Position numbers and translations under genes: made by a program. The notes under the pieces were generated by a model that was not told the origin of the DNA, did not search any database, and was given only the letters and a program-made list of their open reading frames with translations. From Akkermansiaceae bacterium (GTDB lineage: Bacteria; Verrucomicrobiota; Verrucomicrobiia; Verrucomicrobiales; Akkermansiaceae), in the NCBI GenBank assembly GCA_903837825.1, contig CAILVZ010000380.1, forward strand, positions 1-32,307: a stretch of DNA of 32,307 bases. Direction: 5' to 3'. Positions within the stretch are counted from its first letter, which is position 1, and each line of letters starts with the position of its first letter. Below are positions 2 through 32,072 of the stretch, in pieces.

Positions 2-448
2 ACGTTCGTGGATTTTTTGCCGACCGCGGCGGATCTCGTCGGTGCTACCGCACCGTTCGGCATGGATGGCATCTCTATTTTGCCGACGTTGCTCGGTCAG
101 GAACAATCCAAGCAACACGACTCGTTGTATTTTAAAATCTATGAACCTTATTTCCAGCAATCGGTGCGCTTGGGTGACTGGAAAGGTTACCGGCTGGGCA
201 CAAAAGCGCCGCTCGAACTCTACGATCTCGAGGCCAATCCCACGGAACAGCACGACCTAGCAGCCGCGCATCCCGATATTGTCAAAAAAATCGAAGCCAT
301 CATGGTGGCGCAACACACGCCTTCACCTCACTACGACGCGCCGGAACAATCCGAGAGAGACACCAAGAAGCCCGGCAAGAAAAAGAAGGTGAAATCCCTC
401 CCCGAATTGTTGAACGAGGAAAATGCGAATCCCGAACCTATTAAATGA
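2..448 (+). CDS. Sulfatase, C-terminal part (5' end outside window)
   Basis: The reading frame is open from base 2 and enters with TFVDFLPTAADLVG, the segment that in formylglycine sulfatases follows the catalytic core (consensus 'SFVDLLPTLADLAG'). It continues with a short C-terminal subdomain containing RLGDWKGYRL and LYDLEANPTEQHDLA, also typical of the family. The catalytic cysteine motif and metal ligands lie upstream of the window, so substrate class cannot be judged. After the usual family end there is a lysine-rich, charged tail (KKPGKKKKVK) of about 35 residues, probably disordered. The TGA stop overlaps the ATG of the next sulfatase gene (ATGA), so the two are probably translationally coupled. 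The gene starts before the window; an in-frame GTG at base 8 is not a credible start. Confidence 0.85.
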   Translation, partial: TFVDFLPTAADLVGATAPFGMDGISILPTLLGQEQSKQHDSLYFKIYEPYFQQSVRLGDWKGYRLGTKAPLELYDLEANPTEQHDLAAAHPDIVKKIEAIMVAQHTPSPHYDAPEQSERDTKKPGKKKKVKSLPELLNEENANPEPIK

Positions 449-2040
449 GTAACTTGAATATGCATCATCCATCAGCCGCCTGTCTTGCTGCCCTGCTGTT
501 AACGCCGCTGGTCGCGCGATCAGCACCCGCCGCTTCCGAGCCGCAGGCCAAGCCCAATATGATTATCATCCTCGCCGACGATCTAGGCCCAGGCGACATG
601 AGTTGCGCCGGCGCGACGAAAATCAAGACGCCGAACATCGATCGGCTCGCGGCGGAGGGCGTGCGCTTCACGCAGGCTTACGCACCATCGGCGACTTGCA
701 CGCCATCACGCTACTCGATGTTGACCGGTGAATACGCCTGGCGGCAGAAGGCGAAGAACAATGCCATTCTGGATGGTGATGCGCCGCTTTGCATCGAACC
801 TGGCCGATTCACTTTGCCAGAGATGTTGCGCGAGGCGGGCTACCAGACTGGCATTGTCGGCAAATGGCACCTAGGTCTCGGCGACGGCAAGACCAAGGTT
901 GATTTCAACGGTGAGGTCAAACCGGGTCCGCTCGAAGTCGGCTTCGATTATTGCCACATCATTCCCGCCACGGTGGATCGTGTGCCAAGCGTGTGGATTG
1001 AGAATCACCAAGTGCGCAACCTCGACCCCTCAGACCCGATCGAAGTCAGCTACCTGAAGAACATCAGCAGCGAGCCGACTGGCTTGGAGCACCCCGAACT
1101 GCTTTCCCGATATGGTGCGGACAAACAGCACTCCAACACCATCATCAACGGCATCAGTCGCATCGGCTATATGTCAGGCGGAAAATCGGCCAGGTTCAAG
1201 GACGAGGAGCTGGCCAGCACCGTGGTTGCCAAATCCGTGGAGTTCATCGAGCAGCGGAAAGATAAACCGTTTTTCCTAGAAGTCGGCTTGTTTGAGCCAC
1301 ACGTGCCGCGCGTGGCCGAAAAACCGTTTGTCGGTACGAGCGATTGCGGTCTTCGCGGTGATGTCATTCGGCAAATCGACTGGGAGGTCGGCGAAATCAT
1401 GAAAGCGCTCAAACGCCTTCAAATCGCAAACAACACGCTCATCATTCTTTCGAGCGATAACGGCCCGATTCTCTTTGACGGCTACAACGACCGCTCGGTG
1501 GAGGACTTGAACGGACATCGTCCTACCCATGGCCTGCGGGGGTGGAAATATCAGACCTTCGAAGGTGGTTGCCGCGTGCCGTTCCTCGCAAGCTGGCCAG
1601 CCCAAATCAAACCGCGTGTCAGTAATCAAATCATCAACCTGACCGACTGCTTTGCGACTTTCTCAAAGATCGTTGGAGAGGAATTGCCGTCGAATGTGGC
1701 TCCGGACAGTTTGGATCTTTCCTCAGTTTTGCTTGGCAACACAACGGAAAATGTCCGGGATCATACCGTTCTGCATGGCATTGGAGGAACACTCGCGTTG
1801 CGGCAAGGCAACTGGAAATACCTTCCGGCCACCGCCAAGGGTGCGGTCGGCGGCACTGGCAGTGGCGCTGATGCATCCGACCCGCGCTTCGCGTCCGCGA
1901 TCATCCCTGAACCGATGTTGTTCGACCTATCCACCGACCCGGGTGAAGAAAACAACATCATCGCCCAGCATCCGGAAAAAGCCGAGGAACTCGCATCAAG
2001 GCTGCATGCCATTGTCACCAAGAGCGCGTCGTCGAAATAG
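445..2040 (+). CDS. Secreted sulfatase (formylglycine, Cys-type)
   Basis: This 531-aa protein is a sulfate-ester hydrolase of the alkaline phosphatase superfamily. A hydrophobic stretch at residues 11-30 looks like a signal peptide ending near ARSAPAA, so it probably acts in the periplasm or outside. Residues 41-46 (IILADD) give the metal-binding Asp pair. C85 lies in CTPSRYSMLTG, the C-x-P-S-R signature that is converted to formylglycine. GKWHLG (K140, H142) and SSDNG (D338, N339) supply the remaining active-site residues. All key residues are present. Its start overlaps the stop of the preceding sulfatase by 4 bp. An internal ATG six codons later is an alternative start with little effect on the signal peptide. 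No formylglycine-generating enzyme is encoded nearby. The substrate is unknown; sulfated polysaccharide is a reasonable inference from the family. Confidence 0.9.
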   Translation: MSNLNMHHPSAACLAALLLTPLVARSAPAASEPQAKPNMIIILADDLGPGDMSCAGATKIKTPNIDRLAAEGVRFTQAYAPSATCTPSRYSMLTGEYAWRQKAKNNAILDGDAPLCIEPGRFTLPEMLREAGYQTGIVGKWHLGLGDGKTKVDFNGEVKPGPLEVGFDYCHIIPATVDRVPSVWIENHQVRNLDPSDPIEVSYLKNISSEPTGLEHPELLSRYGADKQHSNTIINGISRIGYMSGGKSARFKDEELASTVVAKSVEFIEQRKDKPFFLEVGLFEPHVPRVAEKPFVGTSDCGLRGDVIRQIDWEVGEIMKALKRLQIANNTLIILSSDNGPILFDGYNDRSVEDLNGHRPTHGLRGWKYQTFEGGCRVPFLASWPAQIKPRVSNQIINLTDCFATFSKIVGEELPSNVAPDSLDLSSVLLGNTTENVRDHTVLHGIGGTLALRQGNWKYLPATAKGAVGGTGSGADASDPRFASAIIPEPMLFDLSTDPGEENNIIAQHPEKAEELASRLHAIVTKSASSK

Positions 2041-24335: not shown

Positions 24336-25796
24336 ATGAAAACCGTATCACGCGTCATGGTTTTGGCCACCACCTTCATGGCGTTCCATGTAGGAGCCGT
24401 GACCGCGGCACCTTCTGCACGCAATGTGCTGTTCATCATCGCGGATGACCTCAATACCTTTCTTGGATGCTACGGCGACCCGCGAGCCAGGACTCCAAAT
24501 ATCGATCGATTGGCAGCGCGCGGTGTACGCTTTGACCGTGCTTATTGTTCTCAGCCACTGTGTGGGCCTAGCAGGAATTCAATTCTAACAGGACTCTATC
24601 CCAATAGCACGGGAATCCTTGCCAATGCTCAGATTTTTCGCCAAAGCATCCCGAATCAGATCAGCCTTCCTCAGGCGTTTCGCAACCAAGGTTGGTTGGC
24701 TGCGCGCGTTGGAAAGCTCTATCACTACGATGTGCCGAAGTCGATTGGCACCGCTGGACATGACGACCCCGCGTCATGGGAAGTTCAGATGAATCCGGCA
24801 GGTGTCGATCACTTGGTGGAGGAACCAAATATTGTGAGCCTTTCGCCCGGAAACTTCGGTGCCACACTCAGTTGGTATGCTTCCCCTAGGCCCGATGCTG
24901 ACCACACGGATGGCAAGGTCGCGAACGAAGCCGAATGGATTTTGGAACGCTGTGCCAAACAGCAAGATCGACCATTCTTTCTCGCCGTGGGCTTCTTTCG
25001 GCCCCACACCCCCTTCGTGGCACCGAAGACTCCCTATTTTGACGAATATGCCGAGGCTGACATGCCCATCGTCACTGGAGTGACGGAGGATCAGGCTGAT
25101 ATTCCACCAGCAGCACTCGCAAGTCGCAAAGCGGAGGAGGAAAAGATGACCGACACCCAACGCCGCCAGGCCATGCAAGGCTACTATGCAAGCATAAGCT
25201 TTATGGATGCCCAAGTCGGTCGGGTGATTGACACGCTCGATCGATTGAAGCTTACAGATAGCACGATTATCGTTTTTACCAGCGATCATGGCTACCACAT
25301 GGGCGAACATGGATTGTGGCAAAAACGCAGTTTGTTTGAGGAGAGCACCCGTGTGCCACTTCTGATCATTGCGCCAGGAGTCACGCCTCATGCGGCAGTC
25401 GCCAAATCGCCGATCAGCCAAGTTGATCTTTACCCAACACTTGCTGGACTTTGCGGCATCAAGTCGCCTTCCAACCTTCAAGGCCAGAACCTCATCAACA
25501 CTTTAAAAGATCCTGCCACACCGGGCCGGGGTTGGGCGGTCACTCAAGGAACGCACGGCTATAGTTTACGCACAGAGCGCTGGCGCTACACCGAATGGGA
25601 CGAGGGAAAGCAAGGTCGTGAGCTATACGACCACGATGCTGATCCCAAAGAGCTCAAGAATCTCGCAAATGACCCTTCCCATGAGCAAGCCGTCAAATTG
25701 CTTTCGGAGCAGCTTCGATCAGCGGTGAAGACGACATTCCCGCCCTCGGGCAAGACGCCGGAAATCAAGGAGGGAATTTGGACTCCGAGCATCTAA
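24336..25796 (+). CDS. Iduronate-2-sulfatase-like secreted sulfatase
   Basis: This 486-aa exported enzyme has a signal peptide (residues 1-25). Its fold-typical motifs are FIIADDLN (calcium ligands D37, D38), C76 in CGPSRNSILTG as the formylglycine precursor, GKLYHY (K127, H130) and TSDHGYHMGEHG (D317, H318). The N-terminal LGCYGDPRARTPNIDRLAARGVRF and GLWQKRSLFEESTRVPLLI are those of iduronate-2-sulfatases. These remove 2-O-sulfate from iduronate-containing glycans in animals; bacterial homologues act on diverse sulfated polysaccharides. The catalytic residues all appear intact. It is the first of four plus-strand genes for exported proteins. The start at 24336 gives a good signal peptide. 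Confidence 0.9.
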   Translation: MKTVSRVMVLATTFMAFHVGAVTAAPSARNVLFIIADDLNTFLGCYGDPRARTPNIDRLAARGVRFDRAYCSQPLCGPSRNSILTGLYPNSTGILANAQIFRQSIPNQISLPQAFRNQGWLAARVGKLYHYDVPKSIGTAGHDDPASWEVQMNPAGVDHLVEEPNIVSLSPGNFGATLSWYASPRPDADHTDGKVANEAEWILERCAKQQDRPFFLAVGFFRPHTPFVAPKTPYFDEYAEADMPIVTGVTEDQADIPPAALASRKAEEEKMTDTQRRQAMQGYYASISFMDAQVGRVIDTLDRLKLTDSTIIVFTSDHGYHMGEHGLWQKRSLFEESTRVPLLIIAPGVTPHAAVAKSPISQVDLYPTLAGLCGIKSPSNLQGQNLINTLKDPATPGRGWAVTQGTHGYSLRTERWRYTEWDEGKQGRELYDHDADPKELKNLANDPSHEQAVKLLSEQLRSAVKTTFPPSGKTPEIKEGIWTPSI

Positions 25797-25813: not shown

Positions 25814-27691
25814 ATGCAATGGAAGATCTTCGTGCTGGTTTTGGCGGTGCTTGCAGTCCCGATCGCGATCCGAGCCGCCGATAGGCCCAACATTCTTTGG
25901 TTGAGTAGCGAAGACAACACGACCCTGTTAGGGTGTTATGGTGATTCCATGGCACGCACTCCAACGCTGGATCAACTTGCTCGCGATGGAGTTCTTTTTG
26001 AAAACTGTTTCGCTCAGCCAGTTTGCGCGCCTTCGCGGTTCGCGTTGATCACGGGGACGTTCGCGGCATCTTCCGGTCCTGCAAACCACATGCGGGCTGA
26101 GGGCAAAATTCCCTCATGGATGACGGGGTTTCCTGCATTTTTGCGAAGGGCTGGCTATTTTACCACGAACCAGTTGAAGACCGATTACAATTCACTCATC
26201 CGTGTCGATCAGGTTTGGAATGAATGCGGACGCACTGCGGACTATGCGAATCGAGCGGATTCGAGGCAGCCATTCTTCAGCGTTTATAATCACGAGGTGA
26301 CCCACGAGAGTTGCTTGTTCAAGACCGATGCATTGCCACTCAATTTCCCTCCAACCGATCCCGCGAAAGTACGCATTCCCTCATACCAACCGGACACTCC
26401 AGAAATTCGTGCGGACTGGGCGCGTTATTATGACTGCCTAAAGTTGATGGATCAACAAATTGCGGTGAAACTGGAAAATCTATCAAAGTGTGGTCTAGCA
26501 GATAACACGATCGTATTTTATTTTTCGGACAATGGAGGGGTCTTGCCCCGTAGCAAACGCTTTCTCCATGAAAGTGGCACTCATGTTCCACTCATCGTCT
26601 ATTTCCCGCCCAAGTGGCGGCATCTCGCGCCTGGACCACCCGGGTCGAGAATTAAGACGCCCGTTAGCTTTGTGGATTTCGCACCTACGGTTTTATCGTT
26701 GGCGGGCGTGGAAATCCCAGGGCATATGCAAGGTCGGGCGTTCGCGGGCCCAAAGATGAAGCCGAACGAATACGTTTACTGCACCCGCGACCGCATGGAC
26801 GAGCGCTACGACATGGTGCGGTCGGTCATCGACTCGCGCTGGCTTTATATCCGGAATTTTCGCCCAGATATCAACTACGTTCAGCCGCTAAGCTACATGT
26901 TCAACGCCCGCGGGTATCGGTCATGGGAGCGATTGGCCCGAGGAGGGAAGCTGACCGAAGCGACCGCGAGGTTCTGGGGCGAGAAGCCCACTGAGGAACT
27001 TTACGAGATGGCAGTGGATCACGATAATGTCCATAACCTCGCCAATGATCCTGCCTGCCGGGAGACCCTTAATCGCATGCGCGATGCCTTAAAGAGGCAC
27101 ACACTAGAAATCAACGATAACGGATTTCTGCCCGAAGGCTCGGTGCTTGAAGGTTATGATGAATCGAGAGCGGTGGGGGCCTACCCACTTGTGGAGGTCT
27201 ATCAAATGGCTCTAATTGCATCAGAGCGTAACCCCGATAATCTAGTAAAACTGATTGAGGGGCTTAAAAGTTCAAGCGAGCCCATCCGGTGGTGGGCGGC
27301 ACAAGGATGCACGATGCTGGGTGATCGAGCTCGCTCCGCAAAAAGTTCTCTTTTGCATTGTTTGAAAGATTCGTCAGGAGCCGTCCAGATTGCTGCGGCT
27401 GAAGCTCTTGCTTGTATGGGTCAGTACGACGAGGGGCTTCGGATTCTGCAGCATTGGTTATGTGTGAATGAAAACCCCCAATTTTCTCTGCAGGCCGCCA
27501 ATGTCATCGACCGAATCATCGAGGGGCCAAGGCCCGTGCCAGCCATGATGATGGCATTCCTCGAAGAAGCCGAAATGCGGTTTAAGGCCGATGGGAACAA
27601 TAGCGATGCTCAAAGGATTCTGAAGCGGATGAAATCTGTCGTGGAGGGAAAAATGCCTGCATGGGTTTCAAATCCTCAGTTCCAAGACTAG
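25814..27691 (+). CDS. Secreted sulfatase with C-terminal HEAT-like repeats
   Basis: This 625-aa protein has a signal peptide at residues 1-22. The core has ILWLSSEDN (metal-binding residues as Glu-Asp rather than Asp-Asp), C71 in CAPSRFALITG as the formylglycine precursor, and FSDNGG (D239, N240). Family comparison suggests the group of Cys-sulfatases acting on N- or O-sulfated glycans, but the substrate is not determined. After the normal end, residues of about 465-600 carry helical HEAT-like repeats (IRWWAAQGCTMLGDRARSAKSSLLHCLKDSSGAVQIAAAEALACMG), probably a protein-interaction extension. The ATG at 25814 is preferred to a TTG at 25778, which overlaps the previous gene. It follows the preceding stop by 17 bp. 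Confidence 0.88.
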   Translation: MQWKIFVLVLAVLAVPIAIRAADRPNILWLSSEDNTTLLGCYGDSMARTPTLDQLARDGVLFENCFAQPVCAPSRFALITGTFAASSGPANHMRAEGKIPSWMTGFPAFLRRAGYFTTNQLKTDYNSLIRVDQVWNECGRTADYANRADSRQPFFSVYNHEVTHESCLFKTDALPLNFPPTDPAKVRIPSYQPDTPEIRADWARYYDCLKLMDQQIAVKLENLSKCGLADNTIVFYFSDNGGVLPRSKRFLHESGTHVPLIVYFPPKWRHLAPGPPGSRIKTPVSFVDFAPTVLSLAGVEIPGHMQGRAFAGPKMKPNEYVYCTRDRMDERYDMVRSVIDSRWLYIRNFRPDINYVQPLSYMFNARGYRSWERLARGGKLTEATARFWGEKPTEELYEMAVDHDNVHNLANDPACRETLNRMRDALKRHTLEINDNGFLPEGSVLEGYDESRAVGAYPLVEVYQMALIASERNPDNLVKLIEGLKSSSEPIRWWAAQGCTMLGDRARSAKSSLLHCLKDSSGAVQIAAAEALACMGQYDEGLRILQHWLCVNENPQFSLQAANVIDRIIEGPRPVPAMMMAFLEEAEMRFKADGNNSDAQRILKRMKSVVEGKMPAWVSNPQFQD

Positions 27692-27783
27692 TGTTCGTTT
27701 CGATCGTGGATTGCCACAAATTTTAAGTGTCGTCAATTGTCGCGCAACTTTGTACAAGCGGCATAGTTTCTATTTCCAAGCTA

Positions 27784-30630
27784 ATGAAAAATCCAGCGCC
27801 TGTTCCAACCTCCGAAAGCGAATCTAACCCCAAGAGTTCAAGCAAACTTGGTCTAGCACGTGCGAGTTGCCATAAGCTTGCAATCGTTGCCCTTGCCATT
27901 GCGCCATGCACTGCATTTTCTGCCATCGAGTCGAGTGGCGATGCTCCAACCCAAGCTGCGCCCTTCGCCTCATTTGCGCCGAGAGTGAAGCTCCACTGGG
28001 ACAGTTCATTCCTCTACATCGAAAACAATGGTCTGCCTACCCATAGCATGATGGTGGGGATCACTGCATGGCAGCAACAGGTGCCAATGCCTCAATCGTA
28101 TTTCGGGGACAATGCTTGGCGCGTCCCGCTTCATCCAGTCCCTGCGAAGGAATCGCGGACGATTAAAGGGCACTTCCTTCGTGGCGCGATTGCACTTGCT
28201 GCAAATGGCATCCCGATTTTCAACCCACAAAATAACCGGGGCGAAATCTCACAGGAGATCGGCGAACTCGACCAATGGGGCGGTCACTGTGGTCGCGCAG
28301 ACGACTATCATTACCATGCGGCACCACTCCATTTGCAAGCGGCAGTCGGCAAAGACAAGCCCATCGCCTACGCCCTTGATGGTTATCCAATCTATGGTCT
28401 AACCGAAGCTGATGGTTCGCCACTTGGCAAACTCGATGAATGCAACGGGCACGCAACACCCTCACTCGGTTACCACTATCACGCGTCAACCAAATATCCT
28501 TATGTCAATGGCGGCTTCCATGGTGAGGTGGTGGAACTCGGTGGGCAAGTGGATCCGCAGCCCCACGCTCAGTCCGTCAGGCAAGCACTGCCGCCGCTGA
28601 ACGGCGCCAAGATCACAGGCTTCAAGGCCGCGCCCGATGAGAAATCGTTCAGCCTCCAATACACGGTTGCTAATAAACCTGCATCGGTAAGCTACGGCAC
28701 CTCTGGAGATGGCACATGGAAATTCAAATACGTTAATGCCGATGGATCGACCAGTGAAGAAACCGGAACGATGTCGGCACGCGGTAGCGGTGGAGGTCGC
28801 CCGAAGGAGCGTAATGGTGGTGGTCCTTCAAACGATCGCGGCGGCGCTCAAAGTGACCAGGGTGGAGCACCTGCATCCGATCGCAAGTCACCCAATCTAA
28901 TGCCAAAGGTACCGAGCAGTGAGCCTCAGGCCGTCAGCCATTCGCAATCGAGCGGATCGTTTAAACTCACCAGCCCAGAAGTGATGGATGGAGGCAACCT
29001 TCCAATCGATTACACCGGTGATGGGAGCAGTGCAACCCTTCCACTCGCATGGAGCGGCGCGCCCGCTGGCACCAAGGGTTACGCGTTGATCATGCACCAT
29101 CTGGACCCTGAAGGAAAGACGAAGATCTACTGGACCCTTTATAACATCCCAGCTAGCGCTCAAGGGCTCCCAAAAAATACTAAGGACGTCGGAGTCTTGG
29201 GGCGCAATACGATCAATGATCGGTTAGGCTATGCCCCGCCGCATTCGAAGGGTCCCGGCGCAAAGACCTATGTGCTTACGCTTTATGCGCTATCTGCGCC
29301 CCCGCAGATTGCTACCGCTCCATCCCAAGTGACGGGCGAAAGTCTTGCTGCAGCGCTTAAGGATCGCACCCTCGCGACTACGGAGCTCAGCGTGGTCTAC
29401 ACCCGTGACGGCACAGCCGATTCTCAGGAGCAAGGCGGGCAAAAGATTCCGCGTAGTGAAGATCGGAGCGAAGATCCTAGTAGCGATCTAACACCACCAC
29501 GTAAAGACGGTGAGCGGAAAGAGAGGGAGGGTGATAATGCTTCCGCTCAGGATGCGCAGCCCACGCCATGGATGAAGAAGCATGGTTCTGAAATCGATAT
29601 CGATGGAGACGGCGTCATCACGCTGGCCGAGTTGGCAGACGATATGAATCGTGCATTTGCGATTTACGACCAAGACAAAAATGGCGTGCTGAGCCCGGTC
29701 GAGGTTGAGAAAACCGGAGATGTTCGTGAAGGTGCAGCCTTCGCAGGCCTTATTTTTAAGCACTTTACGGATCTCGATTCTACTGGCGACGGGAACGTCT
29801 CGCGGGACGAAATGGTGGCGGCAGTCAAGTTCATCTTTACCTCTGCGGATCTCAATCACGACAACCGAGTGACCTCCATGGAATGGCAAAATGCTTCTAA
29901 TGCTCCATTCCAGGTCCGGTCTGGAAATACGAGTGGACCATCTTCATCGAATCGATCACCCAATCAAGACACTGCGAAGAAACCAGCGAAAGAGATTAGA
30001 ACTACGCGGAATGGTCCAGATGCAAAGGGTTTCATTAAGCCAGATCTAACAGAAACAATTAAGGTGAACGTCTATGCAGACAACTGGTTCATGTTATACA
30101 TCAATGGCAAGCTGGTCGCAGTGGATCCAATTGATTTTATTCCCCACAATGTGGTCAGTGTCGATATTCTCCCAGAATATCCCATGACCATTGCCGTGAT
30201 GGCGAAGGACAATGCGGATCCCAAGACTGGAATGGAATATGGAAATCATGTGGGCGATGGTGGCCTTATCATCAAGTTTGCCGATGGTACCGTGAGCAAT
30301 GCGACGTGGAAGGCGAAGTGTTTCTTCAAAGGTCCGATCAACCACGATGTGGCTCACCCAACGGTTGAGCACACACCGATTCCTGAAAACTGGTATACTG
30401 TGAATTTTGACGACAGCAAGTGGGCAAACACTGCGGAATATACCGAGCAGCGAGTTAATCCGAAGGAAGCATTTTATCAGGCGGATTTCACGGGAGCCAA
30501 GTTCATTTGGACGGAGGACCTCGACCTTGATAACACGATCATTTTTCGAACGAAAATCGAGAAGCCCACTTGGACGAAGCGCTGGAATACCAAGCCAGAC
30601 TTGGATGTCACCGGTGCGCCTACTCGCTGA
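27784..30630 (+). CDS. Secreted multidomain protein: YHYH, PEBP-like and EF-hand domains
   Basis: This is a 948-aa exported protein. A hydrophobic segment at about residues 34-48 (LAIVALAIAPCTAFSA) acts as a signal peptide after an unusually long N-region. Residues 60-270 form a YHYH domain with two copies of the motif (Y175-H178 and Y230-H233) and conserved GYPIYG. Residues about 390-550 resemble YbhB/YbcL-type phosphatidylethanolamine-binding proteins (LTSPEVMDGGNLPIDYTGDG; WTLYNIPA). Residues about 604-715 contain four EF-hand loops, for example DIDGDGVITLAE and DQDKNGVLSPVE. A final 190-residue beta-rich domain (VYADNWFMLYINGKLVAV) looks like a jelly-roll/ligand-binding module. GTG at 27727 is a weaker alternative start. 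Function unknown; calcium binding is inferred from the EF loops. Confidence 0.75.
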   Translation: MKNPAPVPTSESESNPKSSSKLGLARASCHKLAIVALAIAPCTAFSAIESSGDAPTQAAPFASFAPRVKLHWDSSFLYIENNGLPTHSMMVGITAWQQQVPMPQSYFGDNAWRVPLHPVPAKESRTIKGHFLRGAIALAANGIPIFNPQNNRGEISQEIGELDQWGGHCGRADDYHYHAAPLHLQAAVGKDKPIAYALDGYPIYGLTEADGSPLGKLDECNGHATPSLGYHYHASTKYPYVNGGFHGEVVELGGQVDPQPHAQSVRQALPPLNGAKITGFKAAPDEKSFSLQYTVANKPASVSYGTSGDGTWKFKYVNADGSTSEETGTMSARGSGGGRPKERNGGGPSNDRGGAQSDQGGAPASDRKSPNLMPKVPSSEPQAVSHSQSSGSFKLTSPEVMDGGNLPIDYTGDGSSATLPLAWSGAPAGTKGYALIMHHLDPEGKTKIYWTLYNIPASAQGLPKNTKDVGVLGRNTINDRLGYAPPHSKGPGAKTYVLTLYALSAPPQIATAPSQVTGESLAAALKDRTLATTELSVVYTRDGTADSQEQGGQKIPRSEDRSEDPSSDLTPPRKDGERKEREGDNASAQDAQPTPWMKKHGSEIDIDGDGVITLAELADDMNRAFAIYDQDKNGVLSPVEVEKTGDVREGAAFAGLIFKHFTDLDSTGDGNVSRDEMVAAVKFIFTSADLNHDNRVTSMEWQNASNAPFQVRSGNTSGPSSSNRSPNQDTAKKPAKEIRTTRNGPDAKGFIKPDLTETIKVNVYADNWFMLYINGKLVAVDPIDFIPHNVVSVDILPEYPMTIAVMAKDNADPKTGMEYGNHVGDGGLIIKFADGTVSNATWKAKCFFKGPINHDVAHPTVEHTPIPENWYTVNFDDSKWANTAEYTEQRVNPKEAFYQADFTGAKFIWTEDLDLDNTIIFRTKIEKPTWTKRWNTKPDLDVTGAPTR

Positions 30631-30635
30631 AAAGG

Positions 30636-32072
30636 ATGAGATTTTTCCACCTCATTGCCCTTGTGGGTCTGGCGGCAATTTTGTTGATCGCCGCTAAGCC
30701 TGATGGTCGGCCCAAAGGTGGGCAAGGTGGGGGTGCTGCAGTTGAACCTGCCATTACTCCAGATTATTGGTACAATGTTTGGCTATGCCGTCCTGGCGCA
30801 AAATCGGTCACGGCTAGCGTGATCGGTTGGAAGGACATGGAGATCTATGCGGCGTTTGGCGAGAATCCTGAGGCCATGTCCAAAAGCACACAAAAAGTCA
30901 AACTCGCTGCAGGACAGGCCCAAAACTTGGTCATGGATCAGTTGAAGCCTGATACTGTGTATTTCTATCAGATTAGTCGTTCCATCAATGGAGGCGATTT
31001 CGTCAAGGGCGAGGTTCGTAGTTTTCACACCCAGCGCAGCCGCGATTCCGCATTCTCGTTTGATATCCAGGCGGATTCACATCTTGATGTTAGCTCGGAC
31101 TTGAAAGTCTATCAACAGACACTTTCAAACATGCTCACGGATAAACCCGATTTCATGGTGGATCTTGGCGATACCACGATGGTTGACAAGTTTGGGAGTT
31201 TCTACACCCGTGCCGAATCCCAGTATCGGGCACAACGTTACTACATGGGTCAGATTGCCCATTCCGTACCAATTATGCTTACACTTGGGAATCACGACGG
31301 CGAGCAGGGTTCGCGCCTAACAGGTCAACCGAACTCCATGCCGCTTTTGTCAGTTGCGCTACGTAAGAAGTATTTCCCCAATCCAGAGCCTGGTGAGATT
31401 TACACTGGGAATTCCGTTCCTCGATCTGATGCTGGTTTGCTGCAGGACTATTATGCTTGGGAATGGGGGAGTGCCTTGTTTTTGGTGTTAGATCCATTTT
31501 GGTTCACGACGGATCGGCAGGCGGATGACAACTGGAGCATGACACTCGGTAAGACACAATATGACTGGCTGAAGCGAACGCTTGAGGCGAGCAAAGCTCC
31601 TTACAAGTTTGTGTTCATTCACCACCTCGTCGGGGGCTTAGGGCGTGATGTGCGCGGCGGGGTAACCCCAGCGCCGTATATGGAATGGGGTGGCAAAAAT
31701 GCGGATGGAAGCGATGGGTTTGCGCTTCATCGCGCTGGCTGGGAGATGCCGATTCATCAGTTATTTGTAAAAAATGGCGTGAGTGTGGTGTTCCATGGCC
31801 ATGATCACCTGTTCGCGAAGGAGGAACTTGACGGAGTGATCTATCAGGAGGTTCCGCAGCCGAGTCATCCAAGTGGCGGTACGCGAAGCGCGGAGGAATA
31901 CGGCTACACGGGTGTCATTCTTGGAAGTTCCGGTCACCTGCGGGTCACGGTTAAACCTGCGCAAGCCAGTGTCGAATACGTTCGCTCGATTGTACCGGGA
32001 GTCACCAAGGATCAAGTCGGTAACGCGAGCGTGGCCCATCGATATGTGGTCCAGCCTCGGGGAGTCAATTGA
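30636..32072 (+). CDS. Secreted metallophosphoesterase (purple-acid-phosphatase-like)
   Basis: This 478-aa protein has a signal peptide (residues 1-20). An N-terminal fibronectin-like segment (44-130) precedes a calcineurin-like metallophosphoesterase domain. Metal-binding motifs appear in order: D147-x-H149 (in IQADSHLD), GD (178-179, VDLGDTT), GNHD (218-221), FIHH, and GHDH (in VVFHGHDHLF). This is the family's dinuclear metal set, so it is predicted to cleave phosphomonoesters or diesters outside the cytoplasm. It starts 5 bp after the YHYH protein stop and is very likely co-transcribed with it. The exact substrate is unknown; phytase or nucleotidase activities are possible alternatives. 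Confidence 0.85.
   Translation: MRFFHLIALVGLAAILLIAAKPDGRPKGGQGGGAAVEPAITPDYWYNVWLCRPGAKSVTASVIGWKDMEIYAAFGENPEAMSKSTQKVKLAAGQAQNLVMDQLKPDTVYFYQISRSINGGDFVKGEVRSFHTQRSRDSAFSFDIQADSHLDVSSDLKVYQQTLSNMLTDKPDFMVDLGDTTMVDKFGSFYTRAESQYRAQRYYMGQIAHSVPIMLTLGNHDGEQGSRLTGQPNSMPLLSVALRKKYFPNPEPGEIYTGNSVPRSDAGLLQDYYAWEWGSALFLVLDPFWFTTDRQADDNWSMTLGKTQYDWLKRTLEASKAPYKFVFIHHLVGGLGRDVRGGVTPAPYMEWGGKNADGSDGFALHRAGWEMPIHQLFVKNGVSVVFHGHDHLFAKEELDGVIYQEVPQPSHPSGGTRSAEEYGYTGVILGSSGHLRVTVKPAQASVEYVRSIVPGVTKDQVGNASVAHRYVVQPRGVN

Follow-up and report, generated by a model that had tools for sequence, protein, structure and literature searches.

A 32,307-nucleotide stretch of DNA from an Akkermansiaceae bacterium (contig CAILVZ010000380.1, positions 1 to 32,307; the window) encodes a multidomain protein of a real, conserved and apparently undescribed family, predicted from sequence to be secreted, in which known domain types form a new and functionally suggestive set. 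The order in the window protein is a probable signal peptide, YHYH, beta-meander, PEBP, four EF-hand loops and a C-terminal jelly roll. We put at about even the chance that this protein is a secreted, calcium-dependent, glycan-targeted accessory of an extracellular desulfation and dephosphorylation system. The computed base of this reading consists of a constant domain set, purifying selection, a recurrent neighbourhood of sulfatases and metallophosphoesterases (MPEs), and fusions between the modules. A search of the open-licence literature found no paper on an architecture of the YHYH-PEBP-sulfatase type.

The open reading frame (ORF) spans 27727-30630 on the forward strand and encodes 967 amino acids from GTG 27727; residue numbers throughout refer to this form. 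ATG 27784, which gives 948 amino acids, is the likelier start, since the methionine of the relative L036 aligns with it by eye. Export would probably proceed via a signal peptide whose n-region, read by eye, is unusually long before the hydrophobic core. The features of the protein are as follows.

27784..30630, + strand: coding sequence of the multidomain protein, within an ORF open from GTG 27727
27874..27924, + strand: probable signal-peptide hydrophobic core and cleavage region, residues 50-66 (by eye, from sequence)
27934..28572, + strand: YHYH domain, extended form with two GH..YHYH motifs, residues 70-282 (Pfam PF14240, conservation over 109 domains, AlphaFold2 model)
28285..28317, + strand: first YHYH motif, a candidate metal motif H187..Y194-H-Y-H197 with D182 and D218 on either side (each 109/109)
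28447..28482, + strand: second GH..YHYH motif, residues 241-252 (H242, H250 and H252, each 97/109)
28579..28797, + strand: beta-meander after YHYH, residues 285-357 (family profiles, AlphaFold2 model)
28948..29409, + strand: PEBP domain with altered pocket H458, Y468, K513 and Y515, residues 408-561 (Pfam PF01161 and alignment)
29557..29910, + strand: EF-hand region, residues 611-728 (Pfam and reading of the sequence)
29596-29631, + strand: EF-hand loop 1, residues 624-635
29668-29703, + strand: EF-hand loop 2, residues 648-659
29776-29811, + strand: EF-hand loop 3, residues 684-695
29848-29883, + strand: EF-hand loop 4, residues 708-719
30025..30618, + strand: C-terminal CBM67-like jelly roll, residues 767-964, with D785-N786 at 30079-30084 and FDDSxW at 30406-30423 (AlphaFold2, structure and profile comparison)

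When the window protein was compared with genome contigs, it matched 79 loci, mainly from Verrucomicrobia, with some from Planctomycetes, one titled Armatimonadetes and one titled Terriglobia. Some part of it was matched in 40 of 99 related genomes, and the C-terminal domain (CTD) alone, at E <= 0.001, in 20 of 288 genomes across the phylum, a patchy distribution. Architectures were counted over 114 loci plus the window with domain profiles built here. The same genomes occur in two collections, and near-duplicates, which were kept in these counts, may inflate them as well as the YHYH- and PEBP-conservation and N-terminal-His counts given below; the window itself recurs as L004, L006, L115 and L117. 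Identical domain sequences were removed only for the conservation counts of YHYH (n = 109) and PEBP (n = 88). The most frequent order was YHYH-meander-EF-PBP-CTD (29 ORFs), followed by YHYH-meander-PBP (17), YHYH-meander-PBP-CTD (16) and YHYH-meander-EF-PBP-EF-CTD (14). The order of the window protein, YHYH-meander-PBP-EF-CTD, was present in six ORFs that represent three distinct genomes (window/L006, L036/L007 and L039/L008). An earlier note, made from the DNA letters, had called the architecture unusual. This is right for the exact order, which among the loci examined occurs in only those three genomes, but the protein is a variant of a family with a constant YHYH-PEBP-CTD set and optional EF-hands, and the set of YHYH, PEBP and C-terminal domain is widespread in Verrucomicrobia and also occurs in Planctomycetes. 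Tandem YHYH paralogues without PEBP were seen in the window genome C58 (L002 and L003) and at L085:14532-18487.

All folded domains are under purifying selection and are kept as protein. Against the nearest relative, L036 (80% identity), the ratio of nonsynonymous to synonymous substitution rates (dN/dS) was 0.092 for YHYH, 0.184 for the meander, 0.074 for PEBP, 0.185 for the EF-hand region and 0.070 for the CTD. The low-complexity linkers described in the earlier note are present and change faster than the domains, with dN/dS of 0.26, 0.88 and 0.44 (0.26-0.88 versus 0.07-0.18).

The CTD is the most conserved part of the family, with 34 invariant columns over 23 members. These last 200 residues had no Pfam match. 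The beta-rich C-terminal domain noticed earlier was predicted by AlphaFold2 to be a jelly roll, with a predicted local distance difference test score (pLDDT) of 86.5, and can be named as CBM67-like. Superposed on the CBM67 of SaRha78A (residues 167-298), the model gave Z 10.5 and a root-mean-square deviation of 3.0 over 118 residues at 22% identity; a Pleurotus ostreatus lectin gave Z 9.9, and the Foldseek search by itself reached E 0.011. When GH78 N-terminal domains from related genomes were made into a profile (A3), this matched the CTD profile with a probability of 92% and E 6.7e-7, while the same comparison with the YHYH profile, used as a control, gave 0.2%. A3 aligns weakly to residues 169-228 of SaRha78A, which read ..ISADNVYAVSVDG, with SADNVY at 177-182, and at the corresponding place the CTD reads ..VYADNWFMLYING. 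The D785-N786 pair at this place is invariant in 23/23 CTD members and retained in the farthest homologues. In SaRha78A, we take the equivalent D179-N180 to hold Ca2+ and rhamnose. Two papers describe CBM67 as calcium-dependent (PMC4690510, PMC11512411), the former with rhamnose bound in 3w5n. Judged by model and sequence, the CTD is thus similar to CBM67, by which a GH78 rhamnosidase binds rhamnose in a calcium-dependent manner: the jelly-roll fold, the A-D-N motif at the matching place and the FDDSxW motif appear in both. Unlike the CBM67 of SaRha78A, the window CTD has no catalytic rhamnosidase attached. In public records, three plasmid genes labelled 'PEBP family protein' (L160:8520-9167, L161:7513-8160 and L163:6226-6867) are homologues of the CTD (E 1e-31 to 1e-34) and not of PEBP, so the label is misleading.

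Calcium may also be bound by the EF-hand region, which scored 46.4 bits with Pfam EF-hand_1 (PF00036; cut-off 25.4). The four loops that had been read earlier start at residues 624, 648, 684 and 708, and have 12 residues each with acidic residues at positions 1, 5 and 12, except for an Asn at position 5 of loop 2; in loop 3, position 3 is Thr. The EF-hand state switched at least four times on a tree of 57 distinct ORFs, which makes the EF-hands a moving, optional part of the family and YHYH plus PEBP the constant part. Lanmodulin-like lanthanide binding, raised by weak NCBIfam and PDB matches, was rejected: NF053806 gave 28 bits against a cut-off of 135, an ordinary EF-hand likeness.

The multidomain gene lies in a same-strand row of sulfatase, sulfatase-HEAT, multidomain protein and MPE, with gaps of 92 bases before and 5 bases after it. 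The same order is found in L036. These neighbours are as follows.

24336..25796, + strand: sulfatase with a CGPSR formylglycine-type motif, second upstream neighbour (Pfam PF00884, motif)
25814..27691, + strand: sulfatase with HEAT repeats and a CAPSR formylglycine-type motif, immediate upstream neighbour (Pfam PF00884 and PF13646, motif)
30636..32072, + strand: secreted calcineurin-like MPE, starting 5 bases after the multidomain stop (Pfam PF00149; recurs beside relatives)

A further sulfatase, with a CTPSR motif, lies at the other end of the window (445-2040).

Neighbours were counted for 79 family ORFs, taken from L036-L114 plus the window, with six at contig edges kept in; 361 genes from the same loci served as the control. 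For 52/79 family ORFs versus 26/361 control genes, a sulfatase was either the adjoining same-strand gene or part of the same chain (Fisher odds 24.8, with rows that are related and not independent). Within two genes, a sulfatase was found for 55/79 family ORFs versus 58/361 controls, and an MPE for 22/79 versus 27/361. The link to the adjoining hydrolases that the earlier note had proposed is thus borne out as an association, and the single-chain fusions described below point the same way. At 45% identity the 53 adjacent sulfatases fall into seven clusters; the association has therefore probably arisen, or been maintained, with a variety of sulfatases. The catalytic Cys is kept in 94/94 aligned sulfatases, including the CxPxR-type motifs CGPSR and CAPSR of the window. 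In L037:10685-12058 and about a dozen similar sulfatases, the formylglycine site reads CECSR, with the Pro of CxPxR replaced by Cys.

The modules are also fused to these neighbours. A single ORF in L031 reads CTD-YHYH-meander-EF-sulfatase, YHYH and sulfatase share one chain in L039 (1210 amino acids), L046, L072 and L085, and L064 has a sulfatase-MPE fusion. In giant ORFs of 2500-3755 amino acids (L066:2-7735, L071:2-7708 and L100:7578-18842), Ig/fn3 domains accompany a sulfatase and a purple-acid-phosphatase-like MPE. Two of them, in L066 and L071, are found immediately upstream of a family gene; the third, in L100, has 3755 amino acids and additionally holds Lcl_C, YHYH and CTD, with the order YHYH-CTD-sulfatase-MPE. 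Split forms occur as well. A CTD gene stands upstream of an adjacent YHYH-PBP gene in Planctomycetes, and YHYH, sulfatase and PBP are three genes in Opitutae. Two Loktanella plasmids have YHYH, PEBP, CTD and YHYH genes in a row, a Rhodobacteraceae plasmid has adjacent CTD and YHYH genes, and on a Chlorohelix plasmid a PEBP gene occurs with two MPE genes and a two-component pair. When modules are joined in some genomes and apart in others, this usually signals that they work together, and we read the fused and split modules of this family in that way.

The two YHYH motifs of the earlier note were located at residues 194-197 and 249-252, and Pfam YHYH (PF14240) matched residues 131-226 with E 2.9e-12 and 47.4 bits (cut-off 25). 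The match spans only positions 2-110 of the 193 of the profile; the rest appears to have diverged or been rebuilt around the second motif. D182, H187, Y194-H195-Y196-H197, P200, D218 and G219 are invariant across 109 distinct YHYH domains, which suggests a metal site and not a spacer. PMC7824862 describes the YHYH domain in jumbo phages, terms it enigmatic and predicts that its His triad and Asp coordinate Zn2+ in a metal-dependent hydrolase. The invariant residues of our family fit that prediction, and YHYH may itself be an enzyme, possibly a metal hydrolase. The likeness to the phage domain lies in a profile score above the cut-off and in the conserved His triad and Asp. Compared with the phage domain as described there, the window form is longer, with a second GH..YHYH motif and the beta-meander, and is fused to PEBP and a CBM67-like module. 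YHYH, a domain of both bacteria and phages, is also listed among the Pfam families prevalent in diatoms (PMC11992049). The AlphaFold2 model of YHYH plus meander was confident (pLDDT 91.3, predicted template-modelling score 0.88), and had no PDB match at Foldseek E <= 0.001, with no known fold confidently matched. The best VIA row was FABP5, with Z 7.4 over 66 residues that mostly cover the beta-meander, a likeness that may reflect a common arrangement. One viral model was matched in the YHYH structure search (E 4.9e-9). A phage origin was dropped, as the YHYH-PEBP stretch had no match among 50,697 phage records.

The PEBP-like domain, also named in the earlier note, scored 69.2 bits with Pfam PBP (PF01161; cut-off 24, E 5.9e-19) over residues 425-558 and profile positions 2-135 of 135. 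It is the only PEBP match in the window genome. The whole domain aligns with YbhB/YbcL-type PEBPs (1fux, 1vi3 and 3n08), and the model of that type, TIGR00481, gave E 4e-10, below its cut-off. The domain differs from them in being fused and predicted to be secreted, and in its pocket: where solved bacterial PEBPs have the first Asp of DPD, the His of HW and the His of PH[HR]Y, the window protein has H458, Y468 and K513, respectively. These replacements are family-wide, with His458 in 88/88, Tyr468 in 84/88, Lys513 in 84/88 and Y515 in 88/88 domains. By fold and profile we class the domain as a PEBP outside the canonical-site subgroup. Since the canonical pocket residues are replaced, a phosphatidylethanolamine-type ligand is not to be assumed, and canonical PEBP ligand binding is weakened as a proposal. 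The same replacements count against a phosphate- or phospholipid-scavenging role, in which PEBP would bind phospho-headgroups released from lipid, the MPE would free phosphate and the sulfatase-fold neighbours would be phosphoesterases. The MPE neighbour, the PEBP beside two MPEs in the Chlorohelix plasmid and a ceramidase-like gene in a 12-locus cluster speak for scavenging, but the neighbouring sulfatases retain the formylglycine-type Cys, and PEBP is absent from some chains in which YHYH, CTD and sulfatase are fused (L031 and L100). We consider scavenging very improbable.

The genes and N-termini around the family were also considered for metal handling, in which YHYH and a mature N-terminal His would bind copper or zinc and an envelope two-component system would control the cluster. 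A His at the mature N-terminus is known as a means of binding copper. By pattern, a His directly follows the probable signal peptide in 63/92 family ORFs versus 5/108 neighbouring sulfatases, for example ..AA|HDLATTD and ..FA|HTWKAG (L066:7764-10487, L037:7719-10712 and L058:5266-7086), but neither the window protein nor its closest relatives, L036/L007 and L041, have this His. A CpxA/CpxR-like pair is repeatedly found close to the family gene, with the kinase in 25/79 and the regulator in 17/79 loci (e.g. L037:5477-7720 on the minus strand), and is divergent in several; in L058:994-1686 an extracytoplasmic function (ECF) sigma factor precedes the cluster instead. The pair scores best with Cpx/Bae/OmpR models, all below their curated cut-offs, and these are not specifically metal models. 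HupE_UreJ_2 (11/79 loci) and DsbD (10/79 loci), each assigned on one member, would also suit metal handling, but both come from one lineage, Opitutae, and the sulfatase fusions would be left unexplained. Overall, a role in metal handling seems quite improbable.

In the accessory reading, the protein would be exported via its signal peptide, and the CBM67-like domain would use Ca2+ bound at D785-N786 to attach to a glycan of the deoxy-sugar type. The EF-hands would sense Ca2+ or become rigid with it. YHYH may hold a metal via H187, H195, H197, D218 and/or D182, and this domain may break a bond in that material. The PEBP pocket, in its rewritten form, may take up another anionic group, perhaps a product that carries sulfate or phosphate. 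From whatever is captured, sulfate and phosphate groups would be removed by the sulfatases and the phosphatase encoded next to the gene. According to PMC8857213, Verrucomicrobiota specialise on sulfated fucose/rhamnose polysaccharides, so that sulfated methyl-pentose polysaccharides are plausible substrates in this phylum. The sulfatase-rich loci described there share the phylum, the sulfatases and the methyl-pentose theme with our family; glycoside hydrolases are not constant neighbours here, and the paper does not mention YHYH, PEBP or CBM67.

Several results weigh against the accessory reading. No sulfatase or MPE lies within two same-strand genes of 21/79 family ORFs, and sulfatases are common here, with 25 matches in the window genome. 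In the stretches examined of the Alphaproteobacterial plasmids, no sulfatase profile matched. Glycoside hydrolases and lyases are not constant companions: of 145 untagged neighbours, 61 were scanned, and in these GH18, GH20, alginate lyase and LPMO_10 were each present in a single neighbour. In comparisons with single profiles the CTD had no significant match, and Bac_rhamnosid_N, the only Pfam profile for a CBM67-type domain, reached E 0.15 in 1/23 members. A RhaA match was found in 0/18 same-order genomes with a strong family match (E < 1e-70), and the window genome has one RhaA, but no match to the GH78 N-domain or to a bacterial microcompartment (BMC) shell. Rhamnose catabolism as the direct purpose was therefore rejected, as the GH78-N, RhaA and BMC searches show no tracking with the protein; a different sugar may be the ligand, or catabolism may not be what the binding is for.

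Many carrier genomes without rhamnose catabolism would also suit a non-catalytic scaffold of the extracellular matrix or surface, whose adhesive modules crosslink the cell's own polysaccharide with calcium while the sulfatases remodel that matrix. The low-complexity linkers, the EF-hands as mobile Ca2+ modules, the lectin-like domain and the Ig, fn3 and cadherin-like domains of the giant relatives are in line with such a scaffold. However, its adhesive role fits poorly with a YHYH His/Asp set kept in 109/109 domains, with fusion partners that are enzymes, and with the window protein, in which no anchor motif was seen by eye. We regard a pure scaffold as unlikely.

A bolder form of the accessory reading is put forward tentatively, as possible but doubtful. 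YHYH, the rewritten PEBP and the CBM67-like lectin would be the core of an undescribed extracellular enzyme system in Verrucomicrobia and Planctomycetes; Alphaproteobacteria would have it as separate genes side by side. YHYH would represent a new class of metal-dependent hydrolase, possibly using the mature N-terminal His in most members, and would attack the same material as the partner sulfatases and phosphatases, sometimes in one giant polypeptide.

Within this family YHYH has defined partners: sulfatases, a phosphatase, a lectin-like module and a PEBP whose pocket is altered. If true, the accessory reading would mean that the desulfation of algal-type polysaccharides involves one more component, accessory or enzymatic.

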